A stretch of DNA of 36,440 nucleotides from positions 1 to 36,440 of the forward strand of contig JAAEOR010000603.1 in NCBI GenBank assembly GCA_024222895.1, in the 5' to 3' direction. Origin of the DNA: Hyphomicrobiales bacterium. GTDB lineage: Bacteria > Pseudomonadota > Alphaproteobacteria > Rhizobiales > Kaistiaceae. The position numbers and the translations under genes were made by a program. Each line of letters begins with the position of its first letter. Position 1 is the first letter of the stretch. Shown one piece after another: positions 7,788-23,854 of this stretch. Below the pieces are notes generated by a model, which was not told the DNA's origin, did not search any database, and saw only the letters and a list, made by a program, of their open reading frames with translations.

Positions 7788-8006
7788 AATTCATTGCTGG
7801 TCAATTTGCCGGGCAGATTTTTCGTCCGACCTGACGCTGCCCGGGATTGGCGGGCGGCCCATGACGGCGGCCGCGCGGTCGGCGGAGGGGCCGAATCAGT
7901 GTTTGAAGAGTCGCCGCACCGGGCCCTATCATCGCAGGCTCAGACTTTCCCGCCCGCGTCATGGACGCGGCATGACCGCAGCTGTGACCTTAGCGCGAGG
8001 CCGAAA

Positions 8007-9866
8007 TTGAAACCCACAAGCTTCATCATGTTCACGTCACTCATCGTCGCCCATCCGGCGCTCGGGCAAGACACGCCGGATGCGGTCGTCCCGGGAGCAC
8101 AGCCGTTCGACATGCAGGTGCTCACCACCGACCTGCGCGATCCCTGGGAAGTGACCTGGGGACCAGACGGCTTTCTGTGGGTGACCGAGCGAACCAACGG
8201 CCGGATCATCCGCGTCGATCCGAGGAACGGCACGAAAACCGTCGCGGTCGAGATTGCGGAGGTCTCGGCACCCGGCGGTCAGGACGGGTTGCTCGGCATG
8301 GCCCTTCATCCCGAGCTGCTTAATGAAACGGGTAACGACTTTGTCTACACCGCTCACACCTATGTGGACGAGGCGCGCGGACCGGATGAGACCGTCGCCG
8401 ACGAAGCTAATCCCTATCGATACCTCTACACCAGGATTATCCGACTGAGCTACGATCCGGTGAGCGGCAAGCTGACGGATCCGATTGAGCTTGTCGCCGG
8501 CCTCCCGGCGGGGAACGACCACAACTCCGGTCGGATGAAGATTGGCCCGGATCTCAAGCTGTACTTCACCGTGGGAGATGGCGGAAAAGGCCAACTCAGC
8601 AGCTGGTGCATCCCGATCGAGGCACAACGGCTGCCAAGCGCCAGCGAGATCGAGGCTGGAGATTTCACGGCCTACCAGGGGAAATCACTGCGTATCAATC
8701 TCGACGGATCGATCCCGGAGGACAATCCGGAAATCGATGGAGTCCGCAGCCACGTCTTCACCTATGGCCATCGCAACATGCAGGGTATCGCCTTTGCTCC
8801 GGACGGAACGCTTTATGCGTCAGAGCATGGCCCGAAGGCAGACGACGAGGTCAATATCCTGCTCTCCGGCGAGAACTATGGCTGGCCACACATCTCGGGC
8901 TTTCGAGACGACATGGCCTATCAGTTTGCGCGCTGGGCCGACGCCTCGACGCCATGCGCCGAGCTCCGATTCAGCGATATCGACATCCACCCTTCCGTAC
9001 CAGTCGAGGAAGAGACCGCGTGGGCCGGCGAGTCGCGGGATCCTCTCGCCACGATGTTTACGGTTCCGAGTGACTGGGATTTCACCAATCCGATGTGCGG
9101 CGGCATGCATTTTGTCTGCTGGCCGACGGTGGCGCCGTCCAGCATCGACGTCTACATGCCCGATGGCGGCGGGATTCCCGGTTGGGACAACTCGCTCATC
9201 GTACCGACGCTGAAACGCGGATCGCTTTATCGAATTCCGCTGACACCGGACGGCCTGGCTCCTCGCGGTCCAATCGAACGGTTGTTCCAGTCACCCAACC
9301 GCTTCCGCGATGTCGCCATCGGCCCCGATAGCCGGACCATCTATGTCATCACCGATTCCGGCGGCATAGCCGAATCGCCGGCGGGCGGCACCACCTTCGA
9401 GCTGCAGAATCCCGGATCAATCCTGGCGTTCACCTATACCGGGGAAGCCGACACCGACACTGACCGGGCCAACAGGCCCGAACCGGACGCGAAAGTCGAA
9501 GAACCGGCCGCCCTCAACGATCCCGCGGCCGGCGCTTTGCCCGTCTTTACTACCGATCAGGCCCGCCGCGGACGCATCGCCTACGAGGCTCATTGTGCGT
9601 CTTGCCACGGCCCAAATCTGGGCGGCAGCACCTACGGCACACCGCTGGCCGGCGCCTATTTCGAGGAGAAATGGAGCGGCGAGTCGGTCGGAGCGTTCTA
9701 CGCCTATTCGCACGACACCATGCCCCCGTCACGACCTGGCGATCTCCCCGATCAGGACTATGCCGCGGTCGTTGCCTATGTTCTCCAGGTCAATGGCATG
9801 GCCGAGGGAAGCACCGAGCTACCCGCCGATGTCACACAGCTCGGCCGCATGACGATCGGCCGCTAG
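8007..9866 (+). CDS. PQQ-dependent sugar dehydrogenase (glucose/sorbosone type) with C-terminal cytochrome c domain
   Basis: TTG at 8007 (alternative ATG 8028) gives a plausible signal peptide. DLRDPWEVTWGPDGFLWVTERTNGRI, GHRNMQGIAFAPDGTLYASEHGPKADDEVNIL, then HCASCHGPNLGG (CXXCH). Confidence 0.88.
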   Translation: MKPTSFIMFTSLIVAHPALGQDTPDAVVPGAQPFDMQVLTTDLRDPWEVTWGPDGFLWVTERTNGRIIRVDPRNGTKTVAVEIAEVSAPGGQDGLLGMALHPELLNETGNDFVYTAHTYVDEARGPDETVADEANPYRYLYTRIIRLSYDPVSGKLTDPIELVAGLPAGNDHNSGRMKIGPDLKLYFTVGDGGKGQLSSWCIPIEAQRLPSASEIEAGDFTAYQGKSLRINLDGSIPEDNPEIDGVRSHVFTYGHRNMQGIAFAPDGTLYASEHGPKADDEVNILLSGENYGWPHISGFRDDMAYQFARWADASTPCAELRFSDIDIHPSVPVEEETAWAGESRDPLATMFTVPSDWDFTNPMCGGMHFVCWPTVAPSSIDVYMPDGGGIPGWDNSLIVPTLKRGSLYRIPLTPDGLAPRGPIERLFQSPNRFRDVAIGPDSRTIYVITDSGGIAESPAGGTTFELQNPGSILAFTYTGEADTDTDRANRPEPDAKVEEPAALNDPAAGALPVFTTDQARRGRIAYEAHCASCHGPNLGGSTYGTPLAGAYFEEKWSGESVGAFYAYSHDTMPPSRPGDLPDQDYAAVVAYVLQVNGMAEGSTELPADVTQLGRMTIGR

Positions 9867-10787: not shown

Positions 10788-12086
10788 ATGGCCAACCCGA
10801 CAATTCGTGACATCCGCGTTATTCTTACAGAGCCCGACAACATCAGGCTCGTCATCGTCAAGGTCGAAACCTCGGAACCAGGTCTGCATGGGGTCGGCTG
10901 CGCCACATTCACGCAACGGCCAAGCACGGTTCTCGCCGCCGTGGAGGACTATCTGCGTCCCTTTCTGATCGGCCGGGATGTCGCCGACATCGAGGACATC
11001 TGGCAGTCGAGCTATGTCTCTTCCTATTGGCGGAATGGTCCGGTGCTCAACAATGCCTTGTCAGGCGTCGACCAGGCGCTCTGGGACATAAAGGGTAAGA
11101 TGGCAAACATGCCGGTTTATGACCTGCTGGGCGGCAAGGCCCGCGAGGCGGCAGCCGTCTACGTTCACACCTCCGGCGACAGCCACGAAGAGGTCGGGGA
11201 CAAGATGCAGGCCTTCATGGAGAAGGGGCATCACCACATTCGCGTCCAGATGAGCACGCCGGGCTACGCCACCTACGGCAACAGAGGTGCGGCGTCCGGG
11301 ACTCTGACCGCATCCAACCGCGACGTATCGCAGGGTCCGATTGCCGTCACATCCTGGCTGCGCACCTACGACGACAACAAGCTCTACGCCCATCCTGGCG
11401 GTGTCTTCGAGCCGAAGCCATACATGCGCTCGGCCATCGGCTTGTTCGAATACATTCGTGATCGCTTCGGCTATGGCGTCGAAATCCTCCACGACGTTCA
11501 CGAACGCCTTCCGCCGATCCTCGGCGTCTGGTTCGCCAAGGAAGTGGAGAAGTACCAGCTCTTCTTCCTCGAGGACCTGTTCTCACCCGAGGATAATGAA
11601 TATTTCCGGATGGTGCGGGAGCAGTGTGCCACGCCGATCGCCATGGGCGAACTCTACAACTCACCGCATGAGATCATCCCGATGATCAAGGACCGGCTGA
11701 TCGATTTCCTCCGCATGCACATGTCACAAATCGGCGGCATAACCCCGGCGAAGAAGTTTTCGGCGATGGGCGAGTTGTTCAGCGTGCGCACCGCATGGCA
11801 TGGCCCGGGAGATACGTCACCGGTCGGTCATGCTGCGAATCTCGCACTTGATATCAACAACTACAACTTCGGCATCCAGGAAGCCGCGCTGTTTGGCGAG
11901 CGAACCCTGGAAGTGTTCCCGGAGTGTCCCGAACTGCGCGATGGCATGATGTGGCCGAACGGCGAGCCCGGACTCGGCATCGATATCGACGAGACCTTGG
12001 CCGCAAAATACCCGTTCAAGGAGCGCGAATTCGGAGGAGCCTGGGACACGGTGCGGCGGGCCGACGGTAGCATGGTCAAGCCTTAA
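10788..12086 (+). CDS. D-mannonate dehydratase-like enolase superfamily protein (ManD/RspA family)
   Basis: DIKGKMANMPVYDLLGGK, HHHIRVQMSTPGY, ILHDVHERLPPI, FFLEDLFSPEDNEYF and RTAWHGPGDTSPVGHAANLALD match ManD. Confidence 0.9.
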   Translation: MANPTIRDIRVILTEPDNIRLVIVKVETSEPGLHGVGCATFTQRPSTVLAAVEDYLRPFLIGRDVADIEDIWQSSYVSSYWRNGPVLNNALSGVDQALWDIKGKMANMPVYDLLGGKAREAAAVYVHTSGDSHEEVGDKMQAFMEKGHHHIRVQMSTPGYATYGNRGAASGTLTASNRDVSQGPIAVTSWLRTYDDNKLYAHPGGVFEPKPYMRSAIGLFEYIRDRFGYGVEILHDVHERLPPILGVWFAKEVEKYQLFFLEDLFSPEDNEYFRMVREQCATPIAMGELYNSPHEIIPMIKDRLIDFLRMHMSQIGGITPAKKFSAMGELFSVRTAWHGPGDTSPVGHAANLALDINNYNFGIQEAALFGERTLEVFPECPELRDGMMWPNGEPGLGIDIDETLAAKYPFKEREFGGAWDTVRRADGSMVKP

Positions 12087-12370
12087 CCCGCTTCTCTCAC
12101 ACTCGATCTGATCAGCGCCGGTTCAAACGCGTGACAGGGCGGGAGGGGCGCGAAGATCGTATCGAGATACGGTCGAGGACTTCGACACACCCTGTCCTGC
12201 GCTTGTGTGGACGTCTTGCGCTTCAGCCGGCGTGAAGGTTGCATTTCGGACGACATCTACGGCGTCGGATAGCTCAGCCGTATGATCTCATACACTTATC
12301 GCCACCCGACACCCTATCTGCACCCTCGAAAGTGCAACGCAGACCGCCCCGAGCGTGAGAGAAGCGGGTT
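12085..12370. repeat. 286-bp non-coding element bounded by a 21-bp inverted repeat
   Basis: AACCCGCTTCTCTCACaCTCG at 12085-12105 is the reverse complement, with one mismatch, of CGAGcGTGAGAGAAGCGGGTT at 12350-12370; several hairpins lie inside. Confidence 0.8.
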
Positions 12371-12820
12371 TGAGCAGCCAATTCCTGGCCTTTGGGCAAC
12401 CAATTCCCGGGCCAGAGCTATACAGTCCCGGCTCCAGCGCTCCCGCCGGTCGGCGAAGCTGAGACCGTCCGGAACCGGCTTGATCGCTCAATTGACTTCC
12501 TCAGGTGAGCCAGTTTAGGTTCAGAAAAACCAGAAGGCTGGACCGCTCGATCAATGGGCGAAACCGGTTCGATGGACTTCAGGTATTCTGCGACAGGTCG
12601 GTTTAGCCTGTTCTCGACATCGAGATGTGCCAGACATTTTGAAGACGGACAGGCACGAAACAATCTCCTTTGACGGGACACGTGGCGGGAGACGCGGCTC
12701 TCTCGCAGGCGAAAAATGAAAACGTTATCCTGGGAGGAGGATAGCCAACGACCGCGTACTGTCCTTGGCGACATTCGATCTTTTTTCTACTCTCAACAAC
12801 ACGACTAGGGAGGACCTTAA

Positions 12821-14605
12821 ATGGTGAGACTAAATGTGAACCTTGCTGCCGCCGCCGTCATCGGTATGGCGCTGGCGCTAACGCCCTCGGTGGCTTTCTC
12901 GCAAGCCGCGGTCGAGATCGTCCCCGAGACGCCCTTGGCCGACGTCTCGCGCGACGAGACGCTCGTGCTCGGTTGGAGTATCAACTCGCCGGTCGGCGTG
13001 ACGAATCCCTGGGCGCTCCCCGGTTATACCCACCAGGAAGGCAATGGCTTCCTGTGGGAGCCGCTGATGTATTTCGGCATCTTCTCGGACAAAGAGATCC
13101 CGTGGCTCGCCGAGAGCATCGAATACACCAGCGATGATTTCACGTCGCTCAGAGTCAAGCTCAATCCGAAGGCGAAATGGAGCGACGGTGTGCCCGTCAC
13201 CTCCAAGGACGTCGTCTACACATTCGAGGGCCAGCTCAATAACGACAAATTGCCCTACCACGCGTCCTTTGCCCAGTTTGTCGACACGATCACGGCTGTC
13301 GATGATCTCACGGTGGATGTGCAATTCAAGATTCCCGCGCCGCGTTTCAAATTCGAGGTGCTGACCGAGAAGTTTGATACCGGTATTCCGATCGTGCCAG
13401 CCCATGCCCTGGAAGCCCAAGACAATGTCAACGAGTACCCCGGCGGCACGGAGATCCCACACTCGGGTCCCTACGATCTCGTTGCCTGGAACCAGAACCA
13501 GAAGATCTTCAACCGGAGAGACGATTGGTGGGCGGTCGAGGCAGGCCTGAACGATCTCCCGGAAGTGAAGCGTATCGTGATGGTGAACCTGGGTGGCCAG
13601 GTTGGTCAGAACATGGACACGGTTTCCCAGCGCCTCGTCAACAACGAGATGGACTCGGCTCTGGACATGCGGAGCGCCGTGATCGGGAACATTCTTGCTC
13701 AGAACGCGGACATCACGACCCATACCGGCAGCGAGTCGCCCTATGGCTATCTCGACTGGTGGCCGAACTCGCTGTGGATGAACACGCAGATCGAGCCGTG
13801 GAACGACCCGCGGGTACGCCGGGCCGCCGCACTCACCATCAACCGCGAACTGATCGACGAGATTCTCTATGAAGGCGCAGAGATTTCGACGATCTTTCCC
13901 TTCCCGCTCTACCCGGGACTTCAGGCCTTCGTCGACTCGCCCGAGGTTCAGGCACTGATCGAGAAGTATCAGCCCGGCAAGTACGACCTTGACGAGAGCG
14001 CCGCGCTGATGACCGAAGCCGGCTTCACCAAGAACGGCGATGATTTGTGGGAGAAGGACGGCGAAACCATCAACGCCACCATCCACGGCTTTGAAGGTAT
14101 CCACAGCGATATCGTGCCGATCCTGGTGGAAATGCTGCGCATGGGTGGCTTCGAAGCCTCGACCAACTTTGGTACGGACGCCTACCAGCAGATGGCCGAC
14201 GGTGCCGAGGGCTTCTACATGTTCGGGCACGGAGCGAGCTTGAAGGACCCCTATGCAGCCTTCGAACTGTTCCATGGCCGCTTCAGCGAATCGATCGGCA
14301 CCTCGGCCGGGAACAACCGGTTCTCGCGCTACAGCAACCCCGAGTATGACGCCATTCTGGATGAAATGGCGCCGCTGTCGTCCGACGATCCGAAGTTCAA
14401 GGAACTGGCGGCCAAGGCGCTGGAGGTCTACTGGCGCGACCAGATCGATATTCCGATCATCCAGTGGCTCCATCGCATTGCCTACAATCAGACCAACTGG
14501 ACCAACTGGCCAACCACCGCAAATGTGGCCATGGGCACCAACGGTGCCTTCTGGGCTCACACAGGCATGCTCGTGGTTGCGAACCTGAAAAAAGCGGCTC
14601 AGTAA
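12821..14605 (+). CDS. Peptide/oligosaccharide ABC transporter substrate-binding protein (SBP family 5)
   Basis: Signal peptide; LKPNAKWSDGVPVTSKDVVYTFEG-like motif and DPRVRRAAALTINRELID are typical of DppA/OppA-type SBPs. Confidence 0.92.
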   Translation: MVRLNVNLAAAAVIGMALALTPSVAFSQAAVEIVPETPLADVSRDETLVLGWSINSPVGVTNPWALPGYTHQEGNGFLWEPLMYFGIFSDKEIPWLAESIEYTSDDFTSLRVKLNPKAKWSDGVPVTSKDVVYTFEGQLNNDKLPYHASFAQFVDTITAVDDLTVDVQFKIPAPRFKFEVLTEKFDTGIPIVPAHALEAQDNVNEYPGGTEIPHSGPYDLVAWNQNQKIFNRRDDWWAVEAGLNDLPEVKRIVMVNLGGQVGQNMDTVSQRLVNNEMDSALDMRSAVIGNILAQNADITTHTGSESPYGYLDWWPNSLWMNTQIEPWNDPRVRRAAALTINRELIDEILYEGAEISTIFPFPLYPGLQAFVDSPEVQALIEKYQPGKYDLDESAALMTEAGFTKNGDDLWEKDGETINATIHGFEGIHSDIVPILVEMLRMGGFEASTNFGTDAYQQMADGAEGFYMFGHGASLKDPYAAFELFHGRFSESIGTSAGNNRFSRYSNPEYDAILDEMAPLSSDDPKFKELAAKALEVYWRDQIDIPIIQWLHRIAYNQTNWTNWPTTANVAMGTNGAFWAHTGMLVVANLKKAAQ

Positions 14606-14619
14606 GTAGGCCGCACCAA

Positions 14620-14660
14620 GCGATCAGGTGGGCGCCTCGCGCGCCCACCTCCCCGATCGC
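14620..14660 (+). other. Strong intergenic hairpin between SBP and permease genes
   Basis: GCGATC-AGGTGGGCGC-CTCGC-GCGCCCACCT-cccc-GATCGC: 16 bp of stem with one bulge and no T-tract. Confidence 0.75.
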
Positions 14661-14763
14661 GATGTCAGACATCCGCGCCGTCAAGAATGATCGATCGATC
14701 TCGCAATTGGTTTAGCCTGAACCGGCGCTCGTTCAGCCGACGCCCACAACCGGGAAAGTTATC

Positions 14764-15762
14764 TTGAACATCGCGGTGATAGCCCGACGGATCTTCTTCT
14801 TCTTTGTGGTCGTCTGGGCCGCGTCGACGATCACCTTCTTCATCCCGCGCATATCGACACGCAATCCCATTCGCGAGCGTTTCGCGCAACTTGCCCAGAC
14901 GGGTGGTTTTTCGCCCGGCGATCTGGAACAGATCATCGAGTCATTCACGAAGCAGTTCGGCCTGGATCGGCCCCTGTTTGATCAATATGTCGATTATCTG
15001 TGGAGCGTCGTGAACTTCGATTTCGGGTTCTCCCTCAACCGGTATCCGACAACCGTCACCGATCTCATTGCCCAGTCCCTCCCGTGGACAATTGGCCTTC
15101 TGCTCGTCACCACAATTCTCAGCTTTGTGATCGGCAATCTGCTCGGCGCGATCGCAGCCTGGCCCCGAGCGCCCAAGGGCTGGCGCAACTTTGCACTGCC
15201 GTTCGTGCTGCTGATGGGCGTTCCACCGGTGTTGATGGGCGTCTTGCTGCTTTTCTTCGTCGGCTTTCGACTTGGCCTCCTGCCGCTCGGCGGCGCCTAT
15301 TCGATCGGCGTGGTTCCGAATTGGTCGTGGAGTTTCGCGCTCGACATGCTGAAACATCAGGTGTTGCCCGCCCTTGCCTTGATCCTCGGCACTGTCGGGT
15401 CGTGGGTGCTGACCATGCGCGGGATGGGCATTACCATTCAGGGCGAGGACTATGTGAACTATGCGGAGCACAAAGGACTGAGCGGCGGTCGGATTTTCCG
15501 CGACTATTACGTCCGGAACGCACTGCTTCCCCAGGTAACCGGGTTCGCGCTCGCCCTCGGAACGGTGGTCACATCAGCGATCATCGTCGAAGGCATCTTC
15601 TTCTTACCCGGTATCGGTACCGTCCTGATCAACGCCATCCGCGCGAACGATTACCCTGTCATCTATGGCGTTGTGTTGTTCATAACGATCGCCATCGCGT
15701 TCATCATGACTCTGATGGAGTTCATCTATCCGCTCCTCGATCCACGTATTCGCAATCAATAG
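14764..15762 (+). CDS. ABC transporter permease (DppB/OppB type)
   Basis: TTG start; multi-TM; GEDYVNYAEHKGLSGGRIFRDYYVRNALLPQVTGFALALG EAA-type region. Confidence 0.92.
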   Translation: MNIAVIARRIFFFFVVVWAASTITFFIPRISTRNPIRERFAQLAQTGGFSPGDLEQIIESFTKQFGLDRPLFDQYVDYLWSVVNFDFGFSLNRYPTTVTDLIAQSLPWTIGLLLVTTILSFVIGNLLGAIAAWPRAPKGWRNFALPFVLLMGVPPVLMGVLLLFFVGFRLGLLPLGGAYSIGVVPNWSWSFALDMLKHQVLPALALILGTVGSWVLTMRGMGITIQGEDYVNYAEHKGLSGGRIFRDYYVRNALLPQVTGFALALGTVVTSAIIVEGIFFLPGIGTVLINAIRANDYPVIYGVVLFITIAIAFIMTLMEFIYPLLDPRIRNQ

Positions 15763-15773
15763 GAGCCGGGTTG

Positions 15774-16673
15774 ATGACGGTCGCTCAATCCGCGCTCGAA
15801 GAAGTAAGCCAGCCGCATCGCCTCACTCGCTTGTTCCGTTATCTGCGCCGAAACAAGAGCCTGGCGATCGGGCTTTTCATTCTTCTGATCCTGGTCGCCT
15901 TCACGGTGATTGGTCTGTTGACCATCGACCCGAGGCAAGCCTATCCCCTTGCGGCGCCCCCCAGGCGGCCGCCCAGTTGGGACTATCCCTTCGGCACCGA
16001 CTTCTTCGGCCGGAACCTGCTGGCAGCAATGGTTGTCGGTGCCTGGCAAACCGCTTTCATCGGTGTTCTCGCCGGTGGCCTGGGCACACTTATTGGCGTC
16101 GTCCTTGGCTTCGTATCTGCCTATTTCGGCGGATGGATCGACTCGACGATCCGAGTAGTCTGCCAGATCCTCACACCGATCCCGGTGCTGCTGATTCAGG
16201 TGGTTGTGGCAGGATCGCTGGACAAACGCGACGTGACGATCGTTACGATGGCCCTCATCGTCATGATGCTGGCATGGATGGGTCCGACCCTGGTGATCCG
16301 CTCACAGGTGCTGACAATGAAGGAACGGCAGTTCGTGTCGGTTGCGAAGTTGTCGGGCGTCGGCGATCTCGGGATCATATTCAAGGAGATCCTGCCCAAC
16401 CTCATTCCCTTCATCGCGGCTGCATTTGTCGGCCAGGTCTTCCTGGCGGTGTTCGCGTCGTTTTACCTGGCCGTGCTCGGCCTTGGCCCACTGCGCGAGC
16501 CGCTACTGGGCAACATCATCTGGTCCGCCCAGTCACAAGGCGCGTTCTTCAATGGTTGGTGGTGGTGGCCGATCGAGCCGGCGGTTGGGATGATCCTGAT
16601 CCTGGGGTCGCTCGCTCTGATCAATATGGGGCTTGATGAACTCGCCAATCCCCGGGTGCGGAAGGCCGAATGA
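15774..16673 (+). CDS. ABC transporter permease (DppC/OppC type)
   Basis: ATG at 15774 chosen over the longer ORF; PPSWDYPFGTDFFGRNLLAAMVVGAWQTAFIGVLAGGLGTLIG is typical of the OppC N-terminal region. Confidence 0.92.
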   Translation: MTVAQSALEEVSQPHRLTRLFRYLRRNKSLAIGLFILLILVAFTVIGLLTIDPRQAYPLAAPPRRPPSWDYPFGTDFFGRNLLAAMVVGAWQTAFIGVLAGGLGTLIGVVLGFVSAYFGGWIDSTIRVVCQILTPIPVLLIQVVVAGSLDKRDVTIVTMALIVMMLAWMGPTLVIRSQVLTMKERQFVSVAKLSGVGDLGIIFKEILPNLIPFIAAAFVGQVFLAVFASFYLAVLGLGPLREPLLGNIIWSAQSQGAFFNGWWWWPIEPAVGMILILGSLALINMGLDELANPRVRKAE

Positions 16674-17716
16674 CCATGGCAAGTTCCGTTCAAGCGGAAG
16701 GCGCCCAGGCCGCGCCGAAGCCACCGTCAGATCCCGTTGCCGTCGGAGGCACCGACTCGGTGCTGCAGGTCCGCAATCTGGAGGTGACCTACTACACCGA
16801 TGCGGGCCGCGCCAAAGCTCTCGACGACGTGAGCTTCTCGCTCGGTGCCGGCGAGAAGCTGGGCATGGTTGGCGAGTCCGGCTCGGGTAAGAGCACCCTC
16901 GCCCTCGCGATGATGCGCATGATCAAGGAACCGGGCCGCATCGAGAACGGCGAGGTCGTCGTCGACGGAACTGATTTGATCGCTCTGGACGAAGATGCCA
17001 TGCGCCGGGCTCGTCTCAGCAAGATCGCCTACATCCCCCAGGGCGCGATGAACTCCCTCAATCCGGTGATGCGGATCGGCGCCCAGATGGTGGATGCCGT
17101 CAAGTCGCATGTTCCGGACGAACAGCCCTCGGCAATCAGAGACCGCTGTATGCATGCTCTGGCGTCCGTCGATCTGGACCCCAAGGCGTTCCGCATGTAC
17201 CCGCACGAACTCAGCGGCGGCATGAAACAGCGTGTCTGCGTCGCCATCGGCATATTGCTGCATCCGCAAGTGATTATTGCCGACGAACCGACCAGCGCCC
17301 TCGACGTGGTTACGCAGCGCCAGGTGATGGAGACCATCGATCGCGTTCAGTCATCGATCAATGCCGCTGTCATCCTGATCGGTCACGACATGGGCCTGAT
17401 GGCCCAGTTCGTCGACAAGGTCGCGGTGATGTACGCCGGGCGCCTGGTCGAAGTGAGCGCGGTGCGCGACATGTTCACCGATCCGAAACATCCATACGCT
17501 CAGGCGTTGATCAACAGCCTGCCGAATCTCGACAACAAGGGCGTGTTCGAAGGCATTCCGGGGCTTGCACCTTCCTTGCTACGCCTGCCGAGCGGTTGTG
17601 CGTTTCACCCGCGCTGTTCGCGCGTGATGGACATCTGCAGCGCGAAGCGCCCGGAGGTAACCGCGCTGCCGGGCGGCCATACGGTCATGTGCCACCTCTT
17701 CGATGGAGAGGCGTGA
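16670..17716 (+). CDS. Oligopeptide-type ABC transporter ATP-binding protein (DppD/OppD)
   Basis: Walker A GESGSGKST, signature ELSGGMKQR, Walker B VIIADEPTSAL and OppD C-terminal GCAFHPRCSRVMDIC. ATGA overlap with the upstream gene. Confidence 0.95.
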   Translation: MTMASSVQAEGAQAAPKPPSDPVAVGGTDSVLQVRNLEVTYYTDAGRAKALDDVSFSLGAGEKLGMVGESGSGKSTLALAMMRMIKEPGRIENGEVVVDGTDLIALDEDAMRRARLSKIAYIPQGAMNSLNPVMRIGAQMVDAVKSHVPDEQPSAIRDRCMHALASVDLDPKAFRMYPHELSGGMKQRVCVAIGILLHPQVIIADEPTSALDVVTQRQVMETIDRVQSSINAAVILIGHDMGLMAQFVDKVAVMYAGRLVEVSAVRDMFTDPKHPYAQALINSLPNLDNKGVFEGIPGLAPSLLRLPSGCAFHPRCSRVMDICSAKRPEVTALPGGHTVMCHLFDGEA

Positions 17717-17717
17717 C

Positions 17718-18722
17718 ATGGCAAACCTGCTCGAACTCCACGGCGTCACCAAAATCTACTCGCGCGGCCTGATCCATGCCAAGGAAAACGTCGCGCTCCG
17801 CGACTTCTCGCTGACGCTGAAGGAAGACGAACCAACGATTCTCACCGTCGCCGGTGAGAGCGGCAGCGGCAAGACAACCCTGGCGATGCTGCTGCTCGGC
17901 TTCATTGACGCGACAGAAGGCCAGATCCTCTACAACGGCAAGGACATCAGCACGCTTCGTGGAAAGCAACGACTCGCCTATCGACGTGAAGTTCAGGCGG
18001 TGTTCCAGGATCCGTTCGCCGTGTTCAATCCATTCTACACCGTCGACCATTTGCTCACCGTTCCCATCCGCCGTTTCAAGCTGGCGCAGTCAAAGGCCGC
18101 CGCGCGTGAGAAGATGGACGAGGCACTGACGGCAGTGGGCTTGCGACCTGAAGACGTGCTTGGTCGGTTCCCGCACCAGCTCTCCGGAGGCCAACGCCAG
18201 CGAATCAACGTCGCCAGGGCGCTGCTGTTGCGGCCACGCCTCCTCGTCGCAGACGAACCGGTGTCGATGGTCGACGCATCTCTAAGGGCAAGTATTCTGG
18301 AGACCTTGCGCAACCTCCAGCGCGACTACGGCGTCTCCATCATCTACATCACCCACGATCTGACGACCGCCTATCACATTGCCAAGTCGATCATTGTGCT
18401 TTACCGCGGCGCGGTGATGGAAGCGGGCGATGTCGACGCCGTGATCAAGGATCCTCAACATCCTTATACGCGCCTCCTGGTCGACTCCATTCCCTGGCCT
18501 GATCTGGATCAGCGTTGGGGCGAACACTCGATCATAGCGCGAGAGGCTGACGAAACCGGTGAGGGTTGTCCTTTTCGCGGGCGCTGCCCTTCGGCGATGG
18601 ATGTCTGCAAGACGCGACCGCCGCTCTTTGAGATCGGATCGCATCAAACCGCATCGTGCTTTCTCTATTCGAACAAACCGGAGATCGTCTCCGATCGACT
18701 GTCGCAACTCTTGCCGGCCTGA
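17718..18722 (+). CDS. Oligopeptide-type ABC transporter ATP-binding protein (DppF/OppF)
   Basis: Walker A GESGSGKTT, QLSGGQRQR, LLVADEPVSMVD, GCPFRGRCPSAMDVC; ATG at 17718. Confidence 0.95.
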   Translation: MANLLELHGVTKIYSRGLIHAKENVALRDFSLTLKEDEPTILTVAGESGSGKTTLAMLLLGFIDATEGQILYNGKDISTLRGKQRLAYRREVQAVFQDPFAVFNPFYTVDHLLTVPIRRFKLAQSKAAAREKMDEALTAVGLRPEDVLGRFPHQLSGGQRQRINVARALLLRPRLLVADEPVSMVDASLRASILETLRNLQRDYGVSIIYITHDLTTAYHIAKSIIVLYRGAVMEAGDVDAVIKDPQHPYTRLLVDSIPWPDLDQRWGEHSIIAREADETGEGCPFRGRCPSAMDVCKTRPPLFEIGSHQTASCFLYSNKPEIVSDRLSQLLPA

Positions 18723-21799: not shown

Positions 21800-23854
21800 T
21801 TACGCGGCCTTAGCACCCGCCCTCTCGATTGCCTGATCCGCAAGTTTGCCCGTCAGCTCTGCAAGATGGTCAAATTCGGCGCTGAATGTGCCGACTCCGG
21901 CGGTAGCGGAGCGGAGCTCGACAATCAGATCCCTGATTTCTGACTGGGGAATCATCGCCTCGACCACATCCCAGCCCGGCCAATCCGGCCGCGCGTCGAA
22001 ACCCAGCAGCTGCCCACGACGTTGCGAAACGATGCCGTTTACCCTTGGCGTCGCGTCCGAGGGTACGGCCACTTCCACCTTGAGTACCGGTTCGAGCAAC
22101 ACCGGTTTGCATTGCGGCATGCCCTCGCGCATGCCGACCTGCGCCGCGGTCCGGAAGGCCTGATCGGAGGAATCGACCGAGTGATAAGAGCCATCGGTGA
22201 GTGTTACCGCCACATCGACAACCCGAAACCCGAGGGGACCCCGGTCGAGATAGTCGGCGATTCCGCCCTCGATCGATGAGAAGTAGTTGCGCGGCACGGC
22301 ACCGCCGCTGATGGTTTGCGCAAAGCTGAATCCCGCACCGCGCGGCTGCGGTTTGATGTCGAGCATGACATCACCGAACTGCCCATGGCCGCCGGATTGC
22401 TTTTTGTGGCGGCCGCGCACCGTCACGGACCCGCGAATTGTCTCCTTATAGGGCACCTGCGGATCCTGAGTCGTGACCGAGATTCCATATTTGCCGGTCA
22501 GTCGTTCGAGAGCGACACGCAGGTGCATTTCACCCTGCCCTTCCAGCACCGTCTCACCTGTCTCCTGAACGTGGACGACGCGAAGCGACGGGTCTTCCTC
22601 CACTACCTTGGTCAAGGCAGACGAGAGCTTCACGTCGTCCTTTCGTTCAGCCGCCGCAACCGCTGTGCCGAGCACAGGTCGTGGCGGGTCGAGCGGCGCC
22701 ACCTGGGCCGGCGGCTCTTTGGCGGTCGACATCGTCCAACCGGTTTGAACGTCATCGAGCTTGCCCAGCCCGACGGCCTCGCCGGCAACAGCGGCATCCC
22801 GCTTGTTCGCCTGTTGGCCCATGAGGCGGAACACCCCGGAGACACGTCCGGCCGGGCCATTCGGACCGGTGAGCTCGACACCGTCGCCTACCGTACCGTT
22901 CAGGATGCGCGCAACCGAAAGCTTGCCGCCATGTGTTGTATGGAGCGTCTTGAGAATCTGAACGGCGCCTTCTCCATCATCGGGCACGCCGAGCCGGTCG
23001 CGCGTCTGGTCAATGCCGGGCGCTTCATGTCGAATCGCCTTCAGCAGCCGGCCGATGCCGTTTGCCTTCTCGGCCGCCCCAATCAGCACCGGACAGATGA
23101 CCCCGGCGCGCATCTCGCGAACCAGATCGGTGAAAATCTGCTCACGATCCGGCTGCAAGTCCTCGAGAAGCTGCTCCATCAGCCCGTCATCGTAGTCGGC
23201 AAGGGTTTCCAGCATGGTGAAACGGGCCTCTGCCTCACGGGCGCGATCGTCGTCGGCCATACTGATCATCTCGCTCGCCGCATGCTCGCGGTAGACGAAG
23301 GCCCTCTCCAGGGCGAGATCGATGAAGCCGGAAACGACGTCGTTCTGCCAGATGGGAATATGGCGAAGCACCATAGGCACTTCGCTGGCCGTCTGAAGCA
23401 TCTCCAAGGTCTGGCGGACACTTCCCTCGACCTTGTCGACCTTGTTGAGGAACAGGATACGGGGAACACCCTTGTCCTCGAGGCTCTTAAGGATGACCTG
23501 GAGGGCTGGAATCTTCTTCTCATCCGCCTCGGCGACAACGATGGCCAGATCGACGCCGGCGAGAACGGGCTCCGCCTCAAAGGAAAACTCGACGGAACCT
23601 GGGCAATCGATGATTGTCAGCCGATCGCCCATGAATTCGGTCTCGGCGACATTGGCTTCAACACTCATCTGATGAGCCCGCGCTTCAGGCGAGCCGTCAC
23701 CGACGGTGTTCCCCTCGGCAATCGTACCCTGGCGGGTCACCGTGTCGGTTCGCGCCAGAATCGCCTCAAGTAGTGTTGTCTTGCCGCTGGCAAACGGGCC
23801 CACCAGTGCAATGCACCGTGGCCCCTCGATTCTTCCGCCGCCGTTTTCTGCCAT
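21800..23854 (-). CDS. Elongation factor G-like GTPase (EF-G paralogue)
   Basis: P-loop GPFASGKTT, DCPGSVEF, FLNKVDK, EF-G domains III-V (GEMHLRVALERL, QLLGFDARPDWPGWDVVEAMIPQSEI); start ATG at 23854. Confidence 0.9.
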   Translation of the reverse strand: MAENGGGRIEGPRCIALVGPFASGKTTLLEAILARTDTVTRQGTIAEGNTVGDGSPEARAHQMSVEANVAETEFMGDRLTIIDCPGSVEFSFEAEPVLAGVDLAIVVAEADEKKIPALQVILKSLEDKGVPRILFLNKVDKVEGSVRQTLEMLQTASEVPMVLRHIPIWQNDVVSGFIDLALERAFVYREHAASEMISMADDDRAREAEARFTMLETLADYDDGLMEQLLEDLQPDREQIFTDLVREMRAGVICPVLIGAAEKANGIGRLLKAIRHEAPGIDQTRDRLGVPDDGEGAVQILKTLHTTHGGKLSVARILNGTVGDGVELTGPNGPAGRVSGVFRLMGQQANKRDAAVAGEAVGLGKLDDVQTGWTMSTAKEPPAQVAPLDPPRPVLGTAVAAAERKDDVKLSSALTKVVEEDPSLRVVHVQETGETVLEGQGEMHLRVALERLTGKYGISVTTQDPQVPYKETIRGSVTVRGRHKKQSGGHGQFGDVMLDIKPQPRGAGFSFAQTISGGAVPRNYFSSIEGGIADYLDRGPLGFRVVDVAVTLTDGSYHSVDSSDQAFRTAAQVGMREGMPQCKPVLLEPVLKVEVAVPSDATPRVNGIVSQRRGQLLGFDARPDWPGWDVVEAMIPQSEIRDLIVELRSATAGVGTFSAEFDHLAELTGKLADQAIERAGAKAA

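Follow-up and report, generated by a model that had tools for sequence, protein, structure and literature searches.

A worn MITE-like foldback element at the stop codon of a manD-like gene in a Hyphomicrobiales bacterium

The locus and its features

The window analysed here, i.e., the whole stretch of 36,440 nucleotides of contig JAAEOR010000603.1 (assembly GCA_024222895.1), contains a gene of the enolase superfamily and, directly after it, a short element which has no genes of its own (Table 1). The gene is matched by the ManD family model at 1.9e-117, but the match is below the curated cut-off, and it is called ManD-like for this reason. A PQQ-type glucose/sorbosone dehydrogenase with a cytochrome c domain is found at 7794-9866 of the window, and a dipeptide/oligopeptide-type ABC transporter cluster follows the element at 12821-18722.

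The sequence AACCCGCTTCTCTCACACTCG, at 12085-12105, recurs inverted at 12350-12370 with a single mismatch (20/21 bp), and the chance expectation for such an inverted repeat in 286 bp is about 6e-7. A preliminary description of this DNA had reported this near-perfect 21-bp repeat closing 12085-12370, its start within the manD stop codon, a series of shorter inner repeats and the lack of any recognisable coding function, all of which were recovered here. The open reading frame ends with TAA at 12084-12086, being formed by the TA of a target-site duplication and A12086 of the element, the inner repeats belong to two long arms, and no coding sequence was found in the element, where the longest stop-free run has 57 codons.

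The orientation of the element was set by the match of a right-arm model at 12236-12342 on the + strand. The length between the two TAs is 267-269 bp in the canonical family and 284 bp in the window copy, the difference being due to additional sequence in the left arm, around 12200-12219, which is present in the copy at locus L017 as well.

Table 1. Features of the manD-like gene and of the adjoining element (window positions).
Feature	Position	Strand	Basis
manD-like gene, enolase superfamily; its stop codon is the insertion target	10788..12086	+	ORF, family profile
Left TA of the target-site duplication	12084..12085	.	Sequence; TA flanks in other copies
Whole element, 284 bp	12086..12369	+	Own-genome copy alignment; right-arm model match; element ends
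Left terminal inverted repeat, start of the closing helix	12086..12105	+	Repeat match, copy alignment, consensus fold
Left arm, with GACAGGG/CCCTGTC, GATCGTATC/GATACGGTC and CGAAG/CTTCG	12116..12232	+	Copy alignment, consensus fold, 24-element structure
Site of the 3-bp mini-hairpin at the junction (consensus CCCGAAGGG), which has decayed in this copy	12230..12240 (limits approximate)	+	Consensus fold, 24-element structure
Right arm, with tip hairpin GTATGATCTCATAC at 12280-12293	12238..12338	+	Consensus fold, right-arm model, 24-element structure
Right terminal inverted repeat, opposite side of the closing helix	12350..12369	-	Repeat match, copy alignment, consensus fold
Right TA of the target-site duplication, present as TT and interpreted as decayed	12370..12371	.	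Sequence compared with other copies

Copies in the same genome and in relatives

The blastn search of the region against its own genome, which the preliminary description had proposed, returned 44 matches in about 40 places, with 70-87% identity in the longer ones, and a single-copy accident of sequence, considered at that stage, is contradicted by these dozens of copies. When aligned, the full-length copies have common ends, CTAGCCCGC(A/T)TCTCTCACACTC ... GAGTGTGAGAGAAGCGGGCTAG, and flanks that are unrelated to one another, and several of the partial matches have both ends complete and one whole arm missing. This genome is an imperfect bin (7.1 Mb in 1186 contigs, with 7.6% contamination); contigs C523 and C1012 belong to the genus, given that the flanks of their copies match congeners at around 80%.

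No match was obtained in the four congeners or in the other sampled genomes of the family. The wider search was performed with a covariance model of the right arm, for which the RNAalifold structure of the arm alone, partly misplaced, was used only as a search model. The class sample yielded members in 14 of 385 genomes and the order sample in 9 of 249, the own genome being counted (around 4%), and several of the carriers hold at least ten copies. When GTDB genomes were scanned by pattern, one carrier was returned, the Rhodospirillales MAG PL25a_bin.107, and the class sampled is, judging by this name, probably Alphaproteobacteria. Plasmid and phage records gave no match to the element, and viral contigs gave no exact match for two tip patterns.

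The terminal inverted repeats (TIRs) of the full elements differ between genomes, as in TAGAGCCTTATCGGATCATACGG, TAGAGCACTTTCCGACCATATGG and TAGCCCGCCTTTCTCACAGGG. Nearly all of the full elements, across genomes, measure 267-273 bp with both TAs included, the exceptions being one of 256 bp (L056) and a few with insertions of 15-50 bp. Copies within genome G221 and within genome G690 reach 98.5% identity, i.e., they are near-identical and recent.

Insertion sites

Of 38 copies, 34 have TA at both ends of the element, and in these the TA and the outer host bases read CTAG (20 copies), CTAA (5), TTAG (5), TTAA (2), TTAC (1) or ATAG (1), and the terminal bases of the element are G or A, and C or T. 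The targets are YTAR sites, often stop codons. As the flanking tetramers are equal in only 3 of the 14 sites other than CTAG, the target-site duplication, judged from filled sites, is most likely TA, and a duplication of 4 bp is disfavoured by the same count.

A frame open for at least 90 codons and stopping exactly at the junction TA was found at 25 ends, and the other frames gave counts of 12 and 11, an excess of about twofold which could be explained by the rarity of YTAR inside GC-rich genes. Two loci are found without the element in congeners G001 and G003. At the first (L020), the same two genes are present there and only a short spacer separates them, in sequences that are too diverged for the empty site to be viewed at the level of single bases, and at the second (L019) the similarity to these congeners starts right at the element junction.

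Cloverleaf fold and covariation

Both strands of the window copy fold better than their shuffles (-121 kcal/mol, z -3.8, on the + strand; -144 kcal/mol, z -7.2, on the - strand), and the consensus reaches -176 kcal/mol (z -13.8), or -185 kcal/mol (z -15.6) on the other strand. Given that it folds far less well than the consensus, the window copy can be considered a decayed member of the family. The consensus fold is a cloverleaf, with a closing helix made by the TIRs, a left arm, a 3-bp mini-hairpin at the junction and a right arm, and it has conserved internal loops.

The position of the window copy directly after the manD stop and the strong fold of its - strand would be compatible with a present role as a terminator or as an mRNA-stabilising 3' end of manD, but the + strand, which has the sense of the manD mRNA, folds far worse than the family consensus, the family is missing from the congeners and the pairing is not kept up in the own-genome copies, which leaves such a role with scarcely any likelihood.

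In 24 full elements, RNAalifold identified 93 pairs, 80 of which present at least one compensatory double change. In this structure, 93.7% of the cells are paired, against 64.3% in shuffled and 34-41% in slid controls, and the covariation score is 0.733 against 0.203 when shuffled; the structure was derived from the same alignment on which it was scored, which favours it somewhat, although it stands very far above the controls. Conservation is as high in unpaired as in paired columns (mean identity 0.70 and 0.67). The motifs AGGA, G..G...CG, CGG.C.AG and GACG of the left arm are found again, reverse-complemented, in the right arm, which gives the two halves opposite orientations, and the identity of the core with its own reverse complement exceeds that of shuffles, by a clear margin in some elements and a small one in others.

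The preliminary description had left two readings side by side, a MITE-like element and a multi-branched structured RNA, to be separated by copy number (multi-copy for the former, single-copy with covariation for the latter). This test proved too simple for an element that is both multi-copy and covarying. A single-copy RNA is ruled out by the many copies, and the RNA reading becomes one of a structured non-coding RNA, either a gene or a 3' element of mRNAs, that was spread by a transposon and whose folding as RNA is the selected function. The structure is real, and its very strong covariation (80/93 pairs), together with the conserved internal loops and the location right after stop codons, would fit such an RNA. 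An RNA under selection should, however, favour G-T over A-C on its own strand, and this bias was not seen in the own copies (85 G-T and 80 A-C), within genomes or across genera, where the 24 elements present 63 G-T, 53 A-C and 87 other mismatches in 2229 cells. Both strands also fold about equally well, the arms are in opposite orientation, the own-genome copies mostly lose pairs (308 one-sided and 30 two-sided departures from the consensus pairs, with 16 two-sided expected) and no Rfam family covers the element. As the G-T and A-C exceptions are equally common, the folding of DNA is likelier than selection on RNA, and a structured RNA as the main function is very unlikely.

The upkeep of pairing can also be approached through recent copies. 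Within genomes, the two-sided changes between near-identical copies amount to 10 in G690 (0.7 expected), 28 in G221 (3.1 expected) and 10 in G587 (0.9 expected), counts which are inflated by shared ancestry. These paired changes could come either from selection for pairing or from arm-to-arm correction by template switching, a mechanism that has been described (PMC8794818) and that could keep the arms paired without selection. The element could then be an ordinary MITE with a functionless fold, whose arms are kept paired solely by this correction within hairpins at replication, as the excess of two-sided changes would allow. Such correction should nevertheless erase the internal loops, which are conserved across genera, it would not fix the length, and the old copies are uncorrected. 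The persistence of the conserved loops argues that correction alone is not enough, and this reading is regarded as unlikely. It overlaps with the preferred one, being also a MITE, and the degrees of confidence expressed here do not sum to one.

Search for the mobilising enzyme

No transposase or larger element with the ends of the family was found in the carriers searched, which are incomplete draft genomes in which part of the transposase families was covered, and the mobilising enzyme may be present but unrecognised, or lost. The TIR search returned 40 matches in G690 and 39 in G221, with no match in the control. The TIR pairs in both genomes are spaced only about 250-300 bp apart and the rest are solo ends and short remnants, with no larger TIR-bounded element in either of them. 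Among the loci read in these genomes (L179-L198), there are many solo TIR ends and remnants shorter than 40 bp, and at two of them (L189 and L197) the left TIR is followed immediately by GCGGGCTAG. These solo ends and remnants suggest that the copies decay by losing almost the whole hairpin.

Given that TA is duplicated, an enzyme of the IS630/Tc1-mariner type is pointed to, and the CTAG/YTAR target is a further likeness to MITEs derived from this group. No IS630 with the present ends was found, however, and the IS630-type DDE_3 family is absent from five carriers (G221, G690, G587, G457 and G526). The IS630 of the own genome was rejected as the parent, as its ends differ and it adjoins a truncated element copy. 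At L045 (G000:C31, around 23365-23465) and L063, an IS630-family element with its transposase split over two frames abuts a repeat copy that has no left end, as if it had inserted into this copy.

In the IS5 group (IS427/IS1031), some alphaproteobacterial members have CTAG/YTAR targets and TIRs beginning with GAGC. In a search by DUF4096, transposases with this domain were absent from four carriers (G221, G690, G457 and G526), and the DUF4096 elements that were found have ends that do not match. An IS with DUF4096 in G587 sits in CTAG.

A further candidate is a REPIN-like element moved in trans by a RAYT (Y1) transposase, given that the present element is palindromic and gene-less, as REPINs are, with conserved mismatches in the arms and without a linked transposase. 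Y1 genes are, however, absent from 10 of the 14 carriers searched, G221 and G690 among them, and the present element differs from REPINs in its long TIRs and TA duplication, so this origin is extremely improbable.

Relation to known elements

The present family has TIRs, a target-site duplication, a short length, no transposase gene and many copies, as expected of a MITE. An autonomous relative with the same ends was not found among the TIR matches of G690 and G221 or the IS genes read, although such a partner is not strictly required for a MITE, as partners can be lost. The family was not found in Rfam or described in the literature searched, mostly outside subscription journals and ISfinder, and we call it a TA-duplicating foldback MITE-like family.

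Bacterial MITEs with a terminal TA include Correia/NEMIS, ERIC and RUP (table in PMC2229807), which are likewise gene-less, multi-copy, mostly intergenic and foldable, with TIRs and TA termini (PMC2229807). The present element differs from them in its length of around 270 bp, which is fixed, in the cloverleaf of two long arms and a mini-hairpin, in a sequence that turns over with paired changes and in that no partner IS was found. According to the summary in PMC2229807, the CIR elements of Caulobacter and Brucella (Chen and Shapiro 2003) are also alphaproteobacterial intergenic repeats with two hairpin arms, a linker and TA ends, but they have about 110 bp, lack a closing TIR helix and carry GANTC, the site being expected at an arm tip. 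The present element has a long closing helix, and it is set apart from CIR1-4 on the basis of this description. GANTC occurs anywhere at all in just 4 of the 31 elements, and these 4 are from other genomes than the own one, so that membership in the CIR family was rejected as judged by this site.

Interpretation

The window copy is a worn, partly decayed member of a family of gene-less mobile elements. The evidence for mobility comprises the many copies, the TIRs, the TA-flanked ends, the empty loci of congeners, the near-constant length and the covarying cloverleaf in relatives, and the region is almost certainly mobile DNA. Of the two readings in the preliminary description, the MITE-like one is retained, and an element of this type with a TA duplication is very probable; with good probability, the copy is an old non-autonomous DNA transposon, a foldback that inserted at a YTAR site, the manD stop, and duplicated TA.

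In the mechanism proposed, a candidate transposase supplied in trans would act at the TIR ends, and the element would be inserted at a YTAR site, here the manD stop codon, with the duplication of TA. The folded DNA, as a cruciform or a single strand with its conserved internal loops, may be needed for mobility or recognised during it. Once inserted, the copies are no longer maintained, and they lose their pairing and often a whole arm. As an ordinary transposon with TIRs can do without paired arms, the requirement for folding is something that we infer, and a role for the folded DNA in mobility seems, on balance, the likelier case. In a stricter version, the element could spread only if its full length folded, either as a cruciform or as single-stranded DNA. 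The cloverleaf, with the conserved internal loops of its two oppositely oriented arms, would then be the substrate of a trans-acting enzyme that joins it to TA sites, with one end or arm templating the other, and this version is considered doubtful.

Across many genera, the sequence has turned over, ends included, and a near fully paired cloverleaf of around 270 bp and its length have stayed fixed. A transposase that depends on TIRs alone should call for far less structure than this. Given this excess, the family can be used to test the part of folded DNA in transposition and the way in which palindromes are kept perfect. It also illustrates that excellent covariation over a long sequence, which makes it a candidate "structured RNA", can belong to a DNA element located in stop codons.

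Atypical copies

The element at L056 (G180:C257) has the usual closing helix and right arm, together with an unrelated left arm built of other hairpins, and the arms may thus be exchangeable between elements. A divergent subtype is found at L103 and L108 (G147), with the ends TAGGGTCCAGACCC and an outer left-arm stem that cannot be aligned, its length still being 267 bp. At L054, positions 956-1251 of the - strand match the cspA thermoregulator of Rfam at 43.2 bits, below the cut-off of 78. Within the copy at L055 (G266), around 1392-1500, there is an interruption by a different palindromic repeat, GCGCATGACCCCGAAAATCG...CGATTTTCGGAAAGGATCATGCGC, which seems to represent a second family of alphaproteobacterial repeats, unrelated to the present one.
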